Shown piece by piece: positions 22,063 to 53,404 of a stretch of 64,000 nucleotides of DNA. The stretch comes from Adineta ricciae. Taxonomy: Eukaryota > Rotifera > Eurotatoria > Adinetida > Adinetidae. Where the stretch lies: assembly GCA_905250025.1 (NCBI GenBank), contig CAJNOJ010000279.1, positions 37,858 to 101,857 of the forward strand, read 5' to 3'. Position 1 is the first letter of the stretch, and every line of letters starts with the position of its first letter. The translations under genes and the position numbers were made by a program. The notes beneath the pieces were generated by a model. It made no database searches, was not told the DNA's origin, and saw only the letters and a program-made list of their open reading frames with translations.

Positions 22063-23877
22063 AATTACTACTGCGCCAGTGGCACAAGCTACTACTGCGC
22101 CAGTGGCACAAGCTACTACTGCGCCAGTGGCACAAGCTACTACTGCGCCAGTGGCACAAGCTACTACTGCGCCAGTGGCACAAGCTACTACTGCGCCAGT
22201 GGCACAAGCTACTACTGCGCCAGTGGCACAAGCTACTACTGCGCCAGTGGCACAAGCTACTACTGCGCCAGTGGCACAAGCTACTACTGCGCCAGTGGCA
22301 CAAGCTACTACTGCGCCAGTGGCACAAGCTACTACTGCGCCAGTGGCACAAGCTACTACTGCGCCAGTGGCACAAGCTACTACTGCGCCAGTGGCACAAG
22401 CTACTACTGCGCCAGTGGCACAAGCTACTACTGCGCCAGTGGCACAAGCTACTACTGCGCCAGTGGCACAAGCTACTACTGCGCCAGTGGCACAAGCTAC
22501 TACTGCGCCAGTGGCACAAGCTACTACTGCGCCAGTGGCACAAGCTACTACTGCGCCAGTGGCACAAGCTACTACTGCGCCAGTGGCACAAGCTACTACT
22601 GCGCCAGTGGCACAAGCTACTACTGCGCCAGTGGCACAAGCTACTACTGCGCCAGTGGCACAAGCTACTACTGCCCCAGTGGCACAAGCTACTACTGCAC
22701 CAGTGGCACAAGCTACTACGGCACCAGTGGCACAAGCTACTACTGCACCAGTGGCAGAAAGTACTACTGCATCACTAGATTCTTCAGAGACACAAACGAT
22801 TGTACTGGCAAAACTTGAAAGAATGACAACACCAGTATCGGACGCGATGATGACATCAATAACATCGACAATTTCAATAATTACTTCTGCTAGTAAGACT
22901 CTCAAACTATGGTTCTATTTCGTTAATGATTATTTTTAGATTTCGAAGATACCTCGACTCATATAGTGACACCATCACCACCAAGGCCTGGTGATGGTTT
23001 ATGCTCAGCAGCCACATGGGCGCGAATAGGTGTAGTTGTAGCTGGTCTTGCTGGATATGGTGGAAATCTTGATCAATTAAAGCATCCTTCTGCGGTTTTT
23101 GTCGATGAAAATCAAACGATTTACGTCTCGGATAATGTTAATAATCGCATTATAAAATGGCATATTGGTGATAGATATGGAGAAATTGTAGCGGGTGGAA
23201 ATGGCCTAGGCGCTAATCAAAATCAACTATCGGGTCCACGTGGCTTTGTTGTCGATGAAAATGAAACGTTGTTTGTTGCAGATGCCGAAAATCACCGTGT
23301 TCAACGTTGGTTTCGTGATGCTTCGACTGGTGATACGATTACCAGTGGTATATATGCTCATGGTTTGGTGCAAGAGGACGATGGCTCCTTCTATATGTCG
23401 GCTCGAGCACGTGGTGAAGTAGTAAAACTATTGCCAAACGAAACTGTTGGACAAACGATTTTGTCTCTACTGAATCATCCATATCTAATGTTTCTTGATC
23501 GATATCAATCACTCTATGTGACTGATCGAGATAATCATCGAGTGGTAAAATTAGAGAACGGAGCAGCACCATTCTCCGTTGTTGCTGGTGGTGCGAACGC
23601 TGGCGTTGGTCTCCATCAACTAAATGGGCCGGAAGGTGTATTTGTCGATAAATTTGAAACAGTTTATATAGCTGATAGTTATAATCATCGAATTCTACGT
23701 TGGCCGAAAGGGAAAACATCAGGTGACGTCATTGTCGGTGGTAATGGCGCAGGTGTGCAGTTTGATCAAATGCATCTACCAACTGATGTTACGTTTGACG
23801 TTGAAGGCAATCTTTATGTATCCGATCATAATAACCATCGTGTTCTTCGATTTGCCATTAATAAAACTTTATGTTGA
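22063..23877 (+). pseudogene. NHL-repeat membrane protein, N-terminus lost (copy 2)
   Basis: Exon parts up to 22892 and 22940-23877 are joined over a 47-nt intron exactly as in copy 1. The NHL propeller (~310 aa) is intact and about 95% identical. The N-terminal 100+ residues, including the membrane segment and start codon, are absent. In their place stand the telomere-like tract and the 29-unit TTAPVAQA array. No ATG exists in frame between the TPR stop and the propeller, so the gene is probably dead unless a distant exon supplies a start. Confidence 0.75.
22067..22762 (+). repeat. Coding minisatellite, 29 x 24 bp
   Basis: 29 tandem 24-bp units (696 bp) encode TTAPVAQA in the NHL reading frame. 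Most units are identical; the last few carry single changes. The period is a multiple of three, so copy number can vary without a frameshift. Copy 1 at ~2249 has a single similar TTTAP word and no array. Confidence 0.95.
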
Positions 23878-27919: not shown

Positions 27920-30328
27920 ATGTCTACCGAATATTTTCAAACCCAAAGAAATTTCGAACAAAACAGTCTGATTTGGTTGAATGACAATCTCACTGATACA
28001 CACAAAATCAATCAAATTCAGACACAATTACGACAAGTCATCAACTACCTCAAAATTTATTCAGATGTTGATGAATGTGTTGATTATATTTCATCGAATG
28101 AACAACAACACATCTATCTCATTGTTTCTCATTCATTAGCAGAAGTTATTCTTCCACTTATCCATCAAATCTCTCAAATCAAACTTATTTACATTTTTTC
28201 TCCTAATGATCAACACCCTGATCATCTAATTCCGTCGATTGACAAAATTACCGGTACCTTTATTGATTTGACGCTTTTATGTAACACAATACGAAATCAA
28301 ACTTCGAATACTAAAAGAAGAATACAGTCGGCATGCAATGCGTCTGATTTCTTGTTATCTTCTCTACCTTCTTCATCATCATCAAAATCTCGGCTGGATT
28401 AACAGGAAGCAGAATTCATGTATTTTCGATTGTTATCCGAAGCGATCATTGCTCTAAATCATAAACAATCAACAAAAGATGAGTTCATTTCACTCTGCAA
28501 CTCTCAATACTCCGATAATCAATGTGAACTTGACAAAATCGACGAATTTCATCGTAGATATTCGAAAGAATATGCCATTCGATGGTACACACGTGATTCG
28601 TTTCTCTTTCGAATACTCAACAATGCACTCCGAACACAAAGCATCGATGTTTTGTACAAACTCGGATTCTTCATCACTGATCTTCATCATCAGTTGAAAG
28701 ATTTACACAGGAAACAACTGAATGTCTTGTCCTTACCTTCGGTTGTTTATCGTGGACAATTCATGAACAAAGATGAATTTGATTATAGAATCAAAAATAA
28801 TATTGGTGGATTTCTGTCGATCAACAGTTTCTTTTCAACAAGCACGAAGAGAGATGTCGCCCCGATGTTTACTGGAAACTCGTCATCAACTGATGTGAAC
28901 ATCGAATCGATCGTCTTCGAGATAAAGATTGAGATTGAGAAATGTCGTCAACCATTTGCTGATATTCGATCGTTAAGTTATATGGAAGAAGAAGATGAGA
29001 TACTGTTTTCAGTAGCTACGGTTTTCCGTGTTGAATCAGTTGGGAGATCGGATGTGGAAGGAGTGTGGTTGGTTCGGTTGATAATGAATGGTGAAGAAGA
29101 TGAAGAACTACTTATATTGTCGAAGAATATCAAAGATGAAATTGGTGAATTAGATAATTTGAATACATTCTGTGCTTTGTTAATGAAGATGGGAGAACTT
29201 GGAAAAGCTGAAGAATATTGTTTAATGCTAATCAAAGATACACCAGGTGACAGTTCATCGATGGCTAGATATTATTCAAATCTATCAATGATATACAATG
29301 AACAAATGGATTATGACAAAGGATTATACTATGCTAAAAAGGCTCTGCAAACAGGCACACTCGATTTTCTACTGTTAGCAACTGTTTACACAAATATGGG
29401 TCATTCGTATGCTTATCAAAATAACGCCAAAGCAGCAATCAGTTGCCTTCACGAAGCGATTAAGATTCAGCAAAATATTCTTCATTCCGATAATCTGAAA
29501 CTGATTCCAGCATATGTAAATTTGAGCTTAGCGTATGAGAAAGAGAAACAATTTCCAGAAGCAATTGAATATCTTCAAACAGTCATTGACATGCTCCGAC
29601 AATCGTCATTGATCGATCATCCGGCACTTGCAATGGCTTATACTCATCTTGGATTCATTCATGAAACACAACGCAAATACGAGGTAGCATTGACGTACTT
29701 CAATAAATGCCTCAATATCCAACAAAGAACACTTCCATCACAACACTACCATCTAGCATATACGTATATTCAGCTTGGATTAGTCTATATAAAACAATCA
29801 AATTATGCAGAAGCATACAATGCATGTCAACTAGCATTGAAGATAGTTGATACATCTTCAGAATATCCATATGTTGTCATGCTAATGTATATATTAGGTC
29901 AATATCATTTTCACAACGATAATGTGGTCGATGCAATAGTCTGGTTTGAAAAAGCATTGAGTATTAAAAGGCACTCGTCATTTTATAATAATGAACTTTT
30001 CTTACAGATTTATAGAAGTTTGAGTGTTTTATATTTTGGTCAAAAAGTATGGAAGAAAGCGCTAGATCACAATGAGAAAGCCATCGCTATCGCAATTACA
30101 TATGGCCATCATGATCTTCCGCTGTTTTATATCACATCTACAATGTGTTATGGTGCTTTGGGTGATTTTGAATCAGCTTTTAAATATTCTAAGTTGGCAA
30201 CCAATATTGCTCACAAAATCTTACCACCAGACCATCCTCACATTCAAATGGCTGAAGAGCAGAAATTTAACTTTGGTATCTTTTATAGAAAAAAACTCGA
30301 AAATGAATCCAGAAAATTCATGCATTGA
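27920..30328 (+). CDS. ADP-ribosyltransferase-TPR fusion with in-frame stop (copy 3)
   Basis: The best copy of the family. From ATG 27920 an N-terminal region (LIWLND.., IYLIVSHSLAEVILPLIHQI) leads to a TAA at 28400-28402. The same frame then continues unbroken from ATG 28418 to 30328 (636 aa). ART motifs lie after the stop: arginine VYRGQ (28745), serine FFSTSTK (28829) and the acidic ExE region from 28982. About ten TPRs follow. Block B has CAA where this copy has TAA, so the stop is a point nonsense change. Translation from 28418 would still give a complete ART plus TPR. The enzyme would modify arginines using NAD; its partner is unknown. Confidence 0.8.
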
Positions 30329-47348: not shown

Positions 47349-48409
47349 ATGTCATCTGATATTCAGTTGATTTCTTCCCTTAATTATGCGACAATGCAAA
47401 TCAATCGTCACGGAGCAGCACTGCTACTCTTATTCGGAACGATTGGTAATCTGCTTAATATTCTTGTGTTAAAAGAACATTCGTTTCAAAAGAAACCATG
47501 TGCAGTCTATCTTTCATGGTCGTCGATAACGAGTTTAATATTCATTTGGTCGGGGTTTTTAACTCGAGTTTTGCAAGGGTTAGTTGATGAAGACAATTAG
47601 AAAAGTATGATTCTTTTTTTCTTGTGTTTTTAGTTATAGTGTCAATTGGCCGAATGAAAATCAGGTCGCTTGTAAAGTTCGTCAATTTATTCTGAATGTT
47701 ACATGGGCAATGGGTGCATGGTGTCTTGTTGGAGCGAATATCGATCGATATTTCTGTAGTCATTCTTCGATCACGGTTCGTCAATTAAGTACTAATCGAA
47801 TGGCAAAACGAGTTATCCTTGGAATGTTCATTTTCTTTTGTCTATTGTTTGTGGAAGTGATTTACTGTTTTGAAGGAAGTATTCCGAATGTTCCCGTACT
47901 TTGTTACGGTCGAAATATTCCATGTCGGATGTTTAATGATTGGGCAGCGTTGCTATTTGATATTATTTTACCTAGTATCTGTTTGGCGACTTTCGGTTTG
48001 ATGACGATCCGAAATATTCGAATGAGAGTTGTTCAACCGGTGAGAAAACCAACAACAAATAGCGGGAGTCGATTGTTGACCAGGTTTAACGATCGAAATC
48101 TGACCCGAATGTTACTTATCCAAGTGAGCGATCTCTTTCAGGTTTGACTTTGCGTGCACAATGGTTTTTATTTAGGTTTTCGTTGTGCTGGCTTTGGATT
48201 TACCATTTGGAACTTACCGTGCTTACGCCAGTTTGACATCAAACATTCTAAAAAGTTCGTATCGTGTAGCTGTGGAAAATCTGATTTATTCACAAATTGT
48301 ACTTCTTATCTGTGTTACTCATTCAACTTCATTCTATTTATACACACTCACTGGCTCTGTTTATCGTCTTGCACTAAAACGTATCATCCGTCGTTTTCTT
48401 CTATTTTGA
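47349..48409 (+). CDS. Rhodopsin-like GPCR
   Basis: Exons 47349-47578, 47634-48123 and 48176-48409 flank introns of 55 and 52 nt; 317 aa. Seven helices are seen: LLLLFGTIGNLLNILVL (GN of helix 1), helix 3 WAMGAWCLVGANIDRYFCS (NIDRY in the DRY position), helix 5 ALLFDIILPSICLATFGL, helix 6 MLLIQVFVVLALDLPFG and helix 7. Conserved Cys residues sit before helix 3 and in loop 2 (VLCYGRNIPC). Its last bases overlap the 3' end of the convergent decapping-like gene by 9 bp. Ligand unknown. Confidence 0.85.
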
Positions 48410-50971
48410 GTGAAAACCCAGTTTTGTAAGCATCGCTTGTGTAATAAATGTCAAATGCTGCTCATCTTGATGAGCCACTTTGTAAAGATATAGGACATAT
48501 TTTCCAAGATTCGGATCGTAATGACGAGAAAGTAGATGGAGTTCATCTTGGTTAACATTGTTTCGAAGAAAATGCAATACTTGATGGAGATGTGTAAAAA
48601 GTTTGCTTTTGACTTCATCTTCAATGATATTCGGAGTAGGGTATTCACGAATATTTTTGAGTCGTGGTGGTTCTTCGTTTGTACAGATACCCACGATCAC
48701 TGACTGCGTGGCACCTAAACAAAATTTTATTTTCGAAATATGCCTTCCAGCCCACGAACTTACCAAGAAATGCTTGTAACCAAAAATCTGTTGAATTGCT
48801 GATATTCTTTCCGCTCGATCGACATTTCAGTTCGATGGCTCGATGCGTTGGTCTATGGACTGCATCGGCTTGTGCTGTGATCAGTGTCGCAAAATCGCCA
48901 ATTTGTCCCTCGATCAATTGTTTAAAATTGAGCTGTTGATCGTATTGTCGTGAACACATTCGTTCAAATCGAAATCCATTGGCATTGAGATCCATACTTC
49001 GTTTATCGTGACGTCTGAGAAATAATGTTGTACCGATTTTCGTCACACCCATCACATATTTTGCCCTATTCAGGGCGATTTTCGTCAAGGAATTCCTTTC
49101 GCTTATTACGTCATATTTATGAATATCGATTTTATGACGTTGCGCAGCGATTAGGATTGGAAGAATCGAAGTCTTTTTCGGTTGACGAATAAATGCTTTC
49201 CGTATTCGATTTGGAAAGGTTGAATTCACCCGTGGCTGATCGTAATATGGAATTTCAAGTCTATGCGGAATGCATTGATCATACTGACCAATATTCATAT
49301 GATCAGTAGGAACACGCTGTGTAATATTGAATGAGACGAGAAGTTCAGGTTTGTAATTGTTATAATCAACTACAGCTAAATTGTTATCGATTTCAAATTC
49401 AATACACTGAGAAGCACGACTGAAAATATCATCGCTAATCGGTAGACATCTTTTCGGCTTAGCTAGGGAAAAACGGTACGGTGTGTTTATAGTTTGGTTC
49501 GCAGCAACGTCTTCCAGAGGTTTTTGTTGAACGTCGTTGTTGAAATTCATCAAATGTTGAAATTGATTAGTCAAATCAAACATTCGAGATTCAACATATT
49601 CTACGAACGGTTGGATGAGATCGCATTGCAGGCTTTGATTATGTTTAAGTAGATCATCGATTGAGATCCATTGACATGTCTAAAGGAGTCAAACATTTAG
49701 CGATAAGGCTATTGTGAAGTAAACTCACTTGATTTTGACGTCTATCACGTAATTCAAATTTAAGTATGGGATCATCAAATAGACTGATAAATAATCCGAC
49801 TTGTTCGATAGAGTCATTTTGTACATTGTTGCGGTTCAATCGTTTTTCGATATATTTATGAGAATCCGTGTGTTGATTGTCGTGGAGATCATAAAAATGA
49901 AATATTTCATCGGTAAATTGATGTTTCGCGCAAATTTGTGTGTTGAACACGCGAAAAACTGTTTCAATAATTGTTTCTAATTGAAAATTATTATTAATTC
50001 TCCTGTGACCAATGGGAGGGTTCCAAATACCCTGATGATTTTGGATCATCAATATCTAAACACATTTTTCGTACGAAATAAAATCTAATAACTGGAGCTT
50101 ACCTGTCTTTCTGAATTGAATAATAAGATGCCATATTGAAATCTTTTCAGGACTGGTGTTTCTAAATAGTTTAATACTTGCTTTTCATCTGTTTTATGAA
50201 AATTTACTGAAAGATGAACTATGAAGAACGAATATTCATCGTACCTCGTTTGAAATGTTCTCCAATGACTTGCCGAGGAAAAGAACTAAGCATTTGCGAT
50301 GTCGTTGCGGTCCCATCTGTATCCTTCAGTTGAAGGAGACGATCTTCTTCATCTTGGATTTCTTTTAAAATTTCCATCACTTCAGTTTTAGACTTATTTT
50401 CGGAAAAGAGCCTGCAAAAGAAAGATGAATGAATTTTTAATTGATTTTGATAAATATGCTATTTACCTGTAGATTCGCTTCGGTACTCGACGGCTATTAA
50501 GATGTTTCTCATCAACATGTACGCTAAAGAATGACCGAAGAATAAGGTTTCCTACAGAATTGTGATCTTACGAATTTGACTGTTCAGGCAAACTTTTTGG
50601 AACAACAGGTGATTTCGTTTTGACGATAGGACGCCGATTACTGTTTGATGTGATTTGTTCTGATGCATAAGAATCATCGAAAAGATATTCTTCTTCTTCT
50701 TCTTCTTCTTCTTCTTTGTTGCCATAGTCACCGTAGTCTATGGGAGACCAATCTACCGGAGTCTTCCGATCGTTTTTAAACTCTAGAAGAATTACATTTA
50801 TGTTGATTTGTTTGTTATCAAATATAACCTGTGTCTTTCCATTCCGATGATTCCCTGCGTTGTTCTCTGCTTCGTCTTCTTCTCTCAGTGTTTCCTGTAA
50901 ATATCAATGTTCGAATCACCATAACTAAATCCTATGGATAAATATCTGAGCTCACCACGTCGGTTGGGCAT
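48401..50971 (-). CDS. Fusion of DCP2/Nudix-like and DXO/RAI1-like decapping domains
   Basis: Nine exons (50956-50971, 50829-50894, 50572-50782, 50467-50523, 50245-50411, 50103-50206, 49729-50055, 48764-49679, 48401-48714) joined by introns of 38-61 nt; all phases agree, 725 aa. The N-terminus is Arg-rich with an eight-Glu run. Residues ~197-345 resemble the DCP2 Nudix fold (FQYGILLFNSERQILMIQNH, WNPPIGHRR, CQWISIDDLLKH), but the Nudix-box glutamates are absent. Residues ~410-720 match DXO/RAI1: GFRFE, AQADA (canonical GEVDC, Glu replaced by Gln), AIELK and WLQAFLG. DXO enzymes remove faulty or NAD caps and degrade the RNA 5'-3'. The Gln change may weaken catalysis. Both halves relate to RNA 5'-end processing. 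Confidence 0.82.
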
Positions 50972-51455: not shown

Positions 51456-52209
51456 TCAAAAATAAAATCTAAAATGTTCGGTAAATGCATCCAGCGTTGT
51501 TTGATTAAAATGCCCATCGATATCATTAGCAAATTGTCTTGCAAGACGAAGATTTTTATCGCCAACATGAACGATATAACATTTGTTGATGATATTTTTA
51601 TCGATCATATTCTTGTCAGCCCGAATTTTATTACCCCTGGTAAGTATACAAAGTTTACACGTATTCACATTAGCATCTTGTTTCATTTGTTGTAACATAT
51701 TTATCGCATCGCGCAGAGTATCTTTCATATCTGTTCTAACGATCATAGGCATTTCCAGGATACTTCGTTGATTTCCTCCTTGTACAGGAAACAATCCGTT
51801 CGCCGTTTGAATGATCACTTGTGTTCCTTCTGACGAATTGATGCTATAAGAAAAAACCTATTTCGAATGAATTATATAGCCAACATAAAAACAATTACCT
51901 CTCAGGAATAATGCGGTCAAGAAAGGAACGTACTAATTGTTGTTCTTCCATAGTTGCAATATCAATCAAGTAGATTTCGGTTATTGATTTTGAGTGCATT
52001 ATTGTGCGTACACTTTGATTCAAAACCAATGGAATATTGATGTCTAGTAAAGTGCGACATAACGGACAGGCAAATTCATTGCTTGCCGAGGTTCTTTTAT
52101 GATAATTGATGTATTGTTGAATGCAAATTTCGTCAAAAGTATGACCACAGGGAATAATAACAAGCTTATGAAACACACTATGACAAAGAGAACATTCCAA
52201 ACTACTCAT
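51456..52209 (-). CDS. RING/U-box plus degenerate vWA-like protein
   Basis: Exons 51899-52209 and 51456-51843, 55-nt intron, 232 aa from ATG 52209. The N-terminal zinc-type module is CSLC..PCGHTFDEICI..CPLC; one usual ligand is Asp (FD instead of FC), as in the partner gene. The remainder aligns by eye with the vWA domain of the divergent neighbour (IYLIDIATM for YLIDTSTSM; LCILTRG for LYILTDG; YIVHVGDKNLRLARQFAND for MIHVGKTNADETRQISGQ). The metal-site residues DxSxS and TDG are lost. A probable ubiquitin ligase-related protein whose vWA can no longer bind metal; it may pair with its neighbour. Confidence 0.75.
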
Positions 52210-52283
52210 TCTTGTTGTGACCTGACAAAAACGTTTTTCATGATTTTCGTTATCTACAAGCTCCTCTAGCAATATGATAACAG
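52210..52283. promoter_or_regulatory. 74-bp bidirectional promoter region
   Basis: Only 74 bases separate the start codons of two divergent, related RING-vWA genes, so their control elements must be shared or lie in the coding ends. No TATA-like element is convincing. Confidence 0.55.
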
Positions 52284-53404
52284 ATGAAAGAATTTAAAAA
52301 TACTACGCACTGTTCTCTTGTAACGTGTGCTCTATGCAAGAAAATATTCACTAAACCTGTTACCCATAATTTATGCGGCCATTCGTTCGATCTTGAATGC
52401 ATTAGGAAAGAAAACACATGTCCTGCGCCTCATTGTGGCAAGGAAATAAAGGCAGTAGATTTTTCCATGAATTATACACTCGTAGGCATTGTCAACGATT
52501 ATAGTGAAACAGTAACCGATTCGTATCATCTTTATCTGATTGATACAAGCACATCGATGCAATCATCTGATCATTGGCTTTTTGGATGGTTTGGTAGAAG
52601 TCGATTTGAACAAGCGAAAGATTATATGATGAAAATTTTTGAAGAAGAAATGTTTGTTATCTTGTTGGGGAAAAAGATAAACAGATAAACTTTTGAAATT
52701 TTAGGAAATTGACAAAACATAAAGTGTGTTTAGCAACCTTTGATACCAACGTGATATTCAGAGTTCCATTCAAGACGGTGGATAGTGAACATGCCGCAAG
52801 ATTAGGGTTACTCGAACCAGTCGGAAAGGAAACGGCGCTTTTCGATGCTATAAAAGAATGCTTGGATCATTTCGAACATTTAAATCAAATCTATGACAAT
52901 CCTCCACGATTCCTGTACATCCTCACAGACGGTAAACGCAATGCGGGATGTAAAACTGCTGATGGTGTTGATGCTCAATCACTGAATATTCACACTAACA
53001 GGTTAAATATAGCTGGAATGATGATTCATGTTGGAAAAACAAATGCCGATGAAACAAGACAAATATCTGGTCAACTAGGATATCAATATGTGCAATTAAA
53101 CGAAGATAATATCGGTCCAACTGCAAATTCTATCATGATGTCTGTAAAAATGAAAATAAAGGCTGCTGCGACAGCCTCATCTGGATTTTCAATAGCTGCA
53201 GCTGTTGAGAAGACTTTGGCCATATGGCGAGAGACAGAGAAAAGTATTTGCACAATACCAGATCCGTGTGGTCAGGAAGGTCACTCGGATTTACCTCGAT
53301 TTCAACAACAGTCGCAACCAGAATTACGTCCACAAAGCACCATGCCGACAGCTACGTACACAGCTCCCCATCACCAGCTTGGTTTTGTGCAAGAATTAGA
53401 ATGA
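52284..53404 (+). CDS. RING/U-box-vWA protein with intact MIDAS
   Basis: Exons 52284-52651 and 52705-53404, with a 53-nt intron (GTTTGT..TTAG), 355 aa. N-terminal zinc module CALCKKIF..LCGHSFDLECI..CPAPHC (residues ~15-53). Residues ~75-280 form a von Willebrand A domain with metal-site motifs YLIDTSTSM (DxSxS), a conserved Thr region (GKETALFDAI) and LTDGK. A Pro/Gln-rich tail follows. RING plus vWA resembles copine-like E3 ligases (RGLG) but in reversed domain order. Expected role: recognition of a partner through the metal site and ubiquitin transfer. Paralogous to the divergent gene at 51456-52209. Confidence 0.82.

Follow-up and report, generated by a model that had tools for sequence, protein, structure and literature searches.

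A gene of the rotifer Adineta ricciae that joins a Nudix-like module to a DXO/RAI1-like domain altered at a predicted metal ligand

Removal of non-canonical caps from RNA is an activity of DXO enzymes and also of several Nudix enzymes (PMC7337524), and both folds have non-catalytic representatives: for DXO these are the homologues eIF3d and Cutoff (passages of PMC7293010), for Nudix they are NUDT21 and DBC1, which lack the full catalytic set and of which DBC1 uses the domain as a binding or partner platform (passages of PMC5389931). The protein described here, encoded on the minus strand of a 64,000-nucleotide stretch of DNA from the bdelloid rotifer Adineta ricciae (the window, part of contig C279 in a genome of 130 Mb), has both of these unrelated folds in one chain of 725 amino acids (aa), a Nudix-like part being followed by a DXO/RAI1-like part. 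To our knowledge, eIF3d and Cutoff have no Nudix part; NUDT21 binds RNA, its non-catalytic Nudix domain likewise serving as a binding or partner platform. A first, sequence-only reading of the locus knew of no described fusion of this kind, and none was found among the published matches listed, as judged by titles and the openings of abstracts. Taken as a whole, the protein is best read as a DXO-type factor of RNA 5' ends with a non-catalytic Nudix module, which in A. ricciae would act mainly as a binder, a reading that we hold to be moderately probable and that comes close to the sensor or scaffold role proposed at first. The gene is built as follows:

48401..50971, minus strand: whole gene, nine exons, 725 aa plus stop
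50956..50971, minus strand: exon 1, with the ATG
50829..50894, minus strand: exon 2
50572..50782, minus strand: exon 3, acidic and low-complexity N-terminus
50467..50523, minus strand: exon 4
50245..50411, minus strand: exon 5, conserved, presumably helical stretch with IQDEED
50103..50206, minus strand: exon 6, start of the Nudix-like domain (YGILLFNSERQ)
49729..50055, minus strand: exon 7, core of the Nudix-like domain, including the degenerate Nudix helix
48764..49679, minus strand: exon 8, a single open exon that holds the end of the Nudix-like domain (CQWISIDDLL) together with DXO-like motifs I-V
48401..48714, minus strand: exon 9, C-terminal end of the DXO-like domain and stop

All eight introns have GT-AG borders and lengths of 38-61 nt, and the exons, spliced along the minus strand from 50971 to 48401, join in phase. 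The nine-exon frame of the sequence-only reading is thus upheld, with support from a second haplotype and from the A. steineri protein P0003 (699 aa), which runs through both domains. The deposited A. ricciae protein P0001 is identical in residues wherever the two gene models agree; the first 15 residues of exon 6 are absent from it, and its different treatment of intron 8 takes its end into another frame. Since the C-terminus of the nine-exon model matches that of A. steineri P0003, this model fits the relatives better than the deposited one. The fusion is independent of any splice junction, because the 916 nt of exon 8 carry both CQWISIDDLL, at the end of the Nudix-like part, and DXO motifs I-V; two separate genes are ruled out by the same exon, and the proposal of a single protein is further borne out by homologues that carry both parts. 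The exon 5 stretch with IQDEED has no family match in profile searches. At the other end, the stop of the gene (48401-48403) overlaps the stop of a plus-strand open frame ending at 48409 and resembling a G-protein-coupled receptor (GPCR); the two apparently form a convergent pair with overlapping coding ends.

The kinship of the C-terminal half with DXO/RAI1 is solid, judged by profiles and motifs, which are placed as follows:

48404..49427, minus strand: DXO/RAI1-like domain, aa 401-725, from profile and hhalign comparison
49086..49103, minus strand: SERNSL, with the Arg of DXO motif I
48963..48977, minus strand: GFRFE, DXO motif II, aa 551-555
48870..48872, minus strand: codon CAA of Gln586, which corresponds to Glu234 of mouse DXO (motif III)
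48822..48836, minus strand: IELKC, DXO motif IV (ELK, aa 599-601)
48765..48782, minus strand: WLQAFL, with the Gln of DXO motif V, aa 616-621

The family profile matches Arabidopsis DXO1 (6dkn) with an E-value of 1.6e-6, and scores 42.7 in hhalign against four canonical bdelloid DXO genes (decoys 12-13). The Pfam family RAI1 (PF08652) is found above its cut-off in three of the eight relatives scanned (P0004, P0007 and P0008); the window protein alone gives no Pfam RAI1 match. Motifs I-V follow one another in the order known from Arabidopsis DXO1 and mouse DXO, and the window copy keeps Arg511, Glu555, Asp588, Glu599, Lys601 and Gln618, from the Arg of motif I to the Gln of motif V. The differences from DXO/RAI1 lie in the conserved stretch and the Nudix-like domain ahead of the DXO part; in motif I, which reads SERNS where the canonical DXO genes of the genome have WRG (CRR in one pair); and in motif III, where A. 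ricciae has Gln in place of Glu. The sequence-only reading had listed GFRFE, the Asp, ELK and the Gln of WLQAFL as kept, correctly so, and had missed the last of these differences, the change from Glu to Gln two residues before the Asp (aa 586).

Motif III is Q-A-D in both A. ricciae haplotypes, with Gln586 aligned on the DXO Glu in the 6dkn alignment. This Glu is present in all five other family members that cover it (two from A. steineri, one each from A. vaga and Rotaria, and P0008), and in all eight other DXO-like loci read in the genome. The second copy in A. ricciae (copy b) has in addition Lys in place of the motif IV Glu, and has lost the Gly of motif II. In passages of PMC7293010, mouse Glu234 is given as a metal ligand, and E234Q belongs to a triple mutant that is predicted to bind caps without hydrolysing them and whose design drew in part on eIF3d and Cutoff, the homologues without catalysis; the E199A/D201A double mutant of S. 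pombe Rai1 is called inactive there, and by their spacing these two residues would be motif III.

Because of the Gln of motif III in both haplotypes and the Lys of motif IV in one, the A. ricciae protein most likely binds RNA ends with little or no hydrolysis. Since Gln586 stands in both haplotypes, the protein is, by its residues, a member of the DXO fold family that is not to be filed as a decapping enzyme; going by the description of eIF3d and Cutoff, it would resemble them in having a DXO-type fold without catalysis. The proteins of A. steineri and A. vaga have all readable metal-site residues and are probably decapping nucleases. An active decapping nuclease in A. ricciae as well, with one metal site weakened and a Nudix part that only positions the substrate, is improbable: it would agree with the six residues kept in the window copy, and with the observation that a second metal, at partial occupancy, sits on Glu192 instead of Glu234 (passages of PMC13213243), but not with the Gln that both haplotypes have in place of the second-metal ligand, nor with the additional loss of the motif IV Glu in copy b. 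It counts against the binder that the prediction in PMC7293010 concerns E234Q as part of the triple mutant, so that residual activity is possible.

The N-terminal part is Nudix-like by profile-profile comparison only; its landmark strings, as all strings quoted in the sequence-only reading (YGILLFNSERQILMIQ, CQWISIDDLL, GFRFE, ELK and WLQAFL), are present where they had been placed, YGILLFNSERQILMIQ at aa 197-212 and CQWISIDDLL at aa 318-327.

49593..50135, minus strand: Nudix-like domain, aa 197-345 (introns inside), from profile-profile alignment
49942..49986, minus strand: FQLETIIETVFRVFN, degenerate Nudix helix, E-x7-R kept (E234, R242)

The template for this comparison pools 21 sequences: 10 of the 19 Nudix places of the genome (leaving out L027, L033 and L035 as near-copies, and L039-L044 as isomerase-like or short), all seven bacterial loci, and S. 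pombe DCP2, 3id9, 2yyh and NUDT15 pieces from PDB alignments. As the E-values of hhalign are per single pair, significance was judged by shuffles and decoys, with 300 column shuffles for the pooled profile, 200 for each subset template, and 60 per template for single-template and omission tests; human DCP2 was added only in subset, single-template and omission tests (the last concerning the CQW end and the NudC group). The family alignment scores 35.8 against the pooled template, compared with a maximum of 18.9 in the shuffles and 12.7 for the reversed query, and 105 columns are matched in consistent order. When the alignment is used at full length, aa 213-333 are the matching region, the next best place scoring 13.1 and decoys 12-13. 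The score stays at 34.2-38.2 when any one query row is omitted, rises to 38.4 when DCP2 is removed from the template, and is 38.9 with human DCP2 added and 42.4 when the best single template is then removed. It also survives the loss of the NudC group (30.0, shuffle maximum 18.5) or of the CQW end with all templates in place (24.5, shuffle maximum 19.9); when both are taken away, it falls among the shuffles (19.8, maximum 23.6).

Several results weigh against a Nudix fold. Pfam and NCBIfam searches give no Nudix match for the N-terminal part, and our own Nudix profile, run in plain HMMER, stays at noise (P0009 8.1 bits, P0002 6.2, window protein 5.3, best shuffle 6.4); the sequence-only reading had staked its Nudix assignment on a profile match for residues ~197-345, which is absent in HMMER and present in profile-profile alignment. 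Sequence matches in the PDB are insignificant. The Nudix proteins that turn up in sequence searches, Ndx1 with an E-value of 1.4 and an ADP-ribose pyrophosphatase with 1.1, lie in the claimed register, but antibody chains rank above the ADP-ribose pyrophosphatase. Two AlphaFold models have predicted local distance difference test (pLDDT) scores of 31 and 43 and are too poor for a fold search. Two of the 22 single Nudix templates beat their own shuffles and the other 20 do not, and most small Nudix subsets are at noise: NUDT15-like 10.8, the L034 group 12.0 and L029/L032 12.4, these three judged without shuffles of their own, and four-sequence sets that are NudC-like (18.0), mixed (13.6) or composed of four others (17.9), each under its own shuffle maximum. 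The signal therefore needs the pooled profile. A below-cut-off match to RhoGAP (E-value 6e-4) in one of eight members was taken as chance. All these points would suit a lineage-specific domain that resembles Nudix by chance, as would the drop into the shuffles on joint removal of the CQW end and the NudC templates; we consider this quite improbable, since the pooled score lies far above shuffles and decoys, is robust to the omission of any query row or of DCP2, withstands each of the two removals singly, and comes from an alignment in order over 105 columns.

By the residues of its box, the Nudix module is predicted to be non-catalytic in all family members that cover it. The pattern E-x7-R is kept in all eight sequences that cover the box, with five extra residues between the box Gly, itself present in four of eight, and the Glu. 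The first catalytic Glu, that of RE, is replaced in all eight by V, A or G, and the last by Q or L in all eight; the middle one is kept in five of eight and is Thr in both A. ricciae copies. In the window copy the first lost position is V243, and the next two, T246 and Q247, follow directly on each other. The catalytic box GX5EX7REUXEEXGU is accordingly not found, and the full set of glutamates occurs in none of the eight, as had been seen for the window protein from the sequence alone. A comparable condition is described for NUDT21 and DBC1, whose Nudix folds have an incomplete catalytic set; the box reads E-x7-R-V-F-N-T-Q in the window protein, compared with GX5EX7RLX2EIXGR in NUDT21 (passages of PMC5389931), from which it also differs, as from DBC1, by the five extra residues and the fusion to a DXO part.

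The N-terminal part had been called DCP2-like, of which the Nudix likeness stands and the subfamily is left unproven. The protein shares Nudix landmarks with DCP2 without a clear preference over other Nudix sequences, and Box A of DCP2 was not found with a three-sequence template (hhalign 12.1; shuffle mean 10.1, standard deviation 2.1, maximum 18.4). Matches to PF05026 are confined to the DCP2 of the genome itself, on C244 and C129. A four-sequence DCP2 profile reaches 21.3 (z-score 3.5, shuffle maximum 19.3), three other four-sequence Nudix sets have z-scores of 0.9, 2.6 and 2.7, and a seven-sequence NudC-like set has 5.1. The best single template is L030 of the same genome (C28:445812-446147), which scores 32.5 with a z-score of 9.7 and aligns with 36 columns where the domain ends. 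Two of the four DCP2 rows come next among the 22, with z-scores of 3.5 and 2.8, and the remaining two are at 0.2 and -0.5. We take L030 to be of NudC/NUDT12 type from its zinc ribbon and SQPWPF; the window protein, by eye, has neither of these, nor the catalytic box. That the N-terminal part stems from DCP2 is thus unproven, given the missing Box A, the rise in score on removal of DCP2 and the best single match to a NudC-type sequence. Because NUDT12 and DXO both strip NAD caps in mammals (PMC7337524), the NudC-type hint is worth testing, and no more than that.

Eight homologous proteins were found, of which P0001-P0004 and P0006, from A. ricciae, A. steineri and A. vaga, have both parts; the annotated A. 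vaga model is without several stretches of each. P0005 has the Nudix part and runs on into the DXO domain, stopping ahead of motif III, and P0007 (a partial entry from Rotaria) and P0008 have the DXO part only. A further search added the fragments P0009 and P0010, which carry the Nudix part, and the eight-sequence alignment, used in a third search, brought up no additional protein. By its conservation, the Nudix part is kept between A. ricciae and A. steineri, because it is the best conserved segment in comparison with both A. steineri P0003 (96/150 residues identical, compared with 185/324 in the DXO part) and A. steineri P0004 (90/159 and 139/314). The genome has eight further DXO-like loci besides the fused gene and its haplotype copy (C149/C191, C5/C2, C145/C185, C13 and C55), which would make some five genes, should the pairs be haplotypes; this is more than animals are usually known to have. 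Seven of them (C149/C191, C5/C2, C145/C185 and C13) are canonical, with E-x-D, E-x-K and Gln in all seven when the frames are read by eye, and the C55 gene is a relative that has the DXO part alone, every motif being present in the stretch that was read. The 7-kb stretches around the eight loci hold nothing that matches the N-terminal part at an E-value of 1e-3.

Copy b lies on C528, whose matches are collinear with 42.2-58.5 kb of the window, some stretches being unmatched; it keeps all eight introns with identical lengths and GT..AG ends, and has an open frame of 719 aa. Between the haplotypes, the ratio of nonsynonymous to synonymous substitution rates (dN/dS; NG86 method, with YN00 yielding nothing for two segments) is 0.51 for the whole protein; by segment it is 1.18 for aa 1-110, 0.74 for aa 111-190, and 0.94 in the Nudix part compared with 0.42 in the DXO part. 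The values of 0.7-1.2 throughout aa 1-350, from few changes, speak against a maintained binder, and constraint may be relaxed in A. ricciae. With conserved sites defined as those identical in relatives (P0001 being excluded, here and from the motif and identity counts above, for its cut-short model) and one-sided Fisher tests, the changes between haplotypes fall on 4/64 conserved and 81/261 variable sites in the DXO part (p 1e-5), on 8/92 and 28/132 in aa 98-350 (p 0.009), and on 6/63 and 12/82 in the Nudix part alone, where the difference is not significant (p 0.25). Among the four conserved positions that have changed in the DXO part is the Glu of motif IV. A decaying gene, left under relaxed selection in A. 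ricciae while the fused enzyme works in other Adineta, is a less probable reading: in its favour, the motif III Glu is lost from both copies, the motif II Gly and motif IV Glu are lost from copy b, and dN/dS is high in the Nudix part and in aa 1-110; but both frames are open, all introns are intact, and the changes avoid conserved sites in the DXO part and in aa 98-350, the Nudix part alone giving no significant difference.

The DXO half also stands out in its divergence between haplotypes. In the four 250-base bins of window 48500-49499, identity to C528 is 79-87%, and in most other bins it is 88-100%, with bins 48000 and 51000 also low at 86-88%; the synonymous rate is about 0.36 in the DXO half, compared with 0.06 in the Nudix part. 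Intron 8 is likewise different between the two. From this pattern the DXO half looks like a mosaic, produced either by gene conversion or by exchange with a more deeply diverged lineage; a DNA search of the assembly found no donor for it.

Neighbouring genes comprise the GPCR-like frame (7tm_1, below cut-off) and RING/VWA-like ones, the latter being two adjacent divergent open frames with RING-finger matches at 51895-52688, the plus-strand one with a weak VWA match. A role in anti-RNA defence, raised in the sequence-only reading, found nothing in its favour among these neighbouring genes, which were all that was looked at. Elsewhere in the window, positions 28403-30325 on the plus strand hold a 641-aa open frame with a match to NAD:arginine ADP-ribosyltransferase (E-value 4e-6) and tetratricopeptide repeats (TPR), and at positions 22066-22770 a 24-bp unit is repeated in tandem 29 times, the copies being 98% alike and the array open in several frames on both strands.

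For the DXO-type factor with a non-catalytic Nudix module, we infer function, binding, substrate and partners as follows. The DXO cleft would hold an RNA 5' end, with an incomplete or metabolite cap or a 5' phosphate, as in DXO, and the Nudix module would be a platform for a ligand, RNA or partner, as non-catalytic Nudix domains are elsewhere; the proteins of A. steineri and A. vaga would likely be catalytic, that of A. ricciae mainly a binder. Going further, and only tentatively, the A. ricciae protein may be a cap reader derived from a decapping enzyme, which with both metal sites altered would recognise RNAs with metabolite or incomplete caps and shield or sort them, its sister species having an active DXO half. 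The natural change from Glu to Gln, at the very ligand that structural biologists have altered to trap cap complexes, offers a direct test of such a step from eraser to reader, and since species of one genus differ at the motif III residue, the comparison needs few purified proteins. If the cap-reader proposal is true, the genus Adineta would hold both the state before and the state after a change from eraser to reader.

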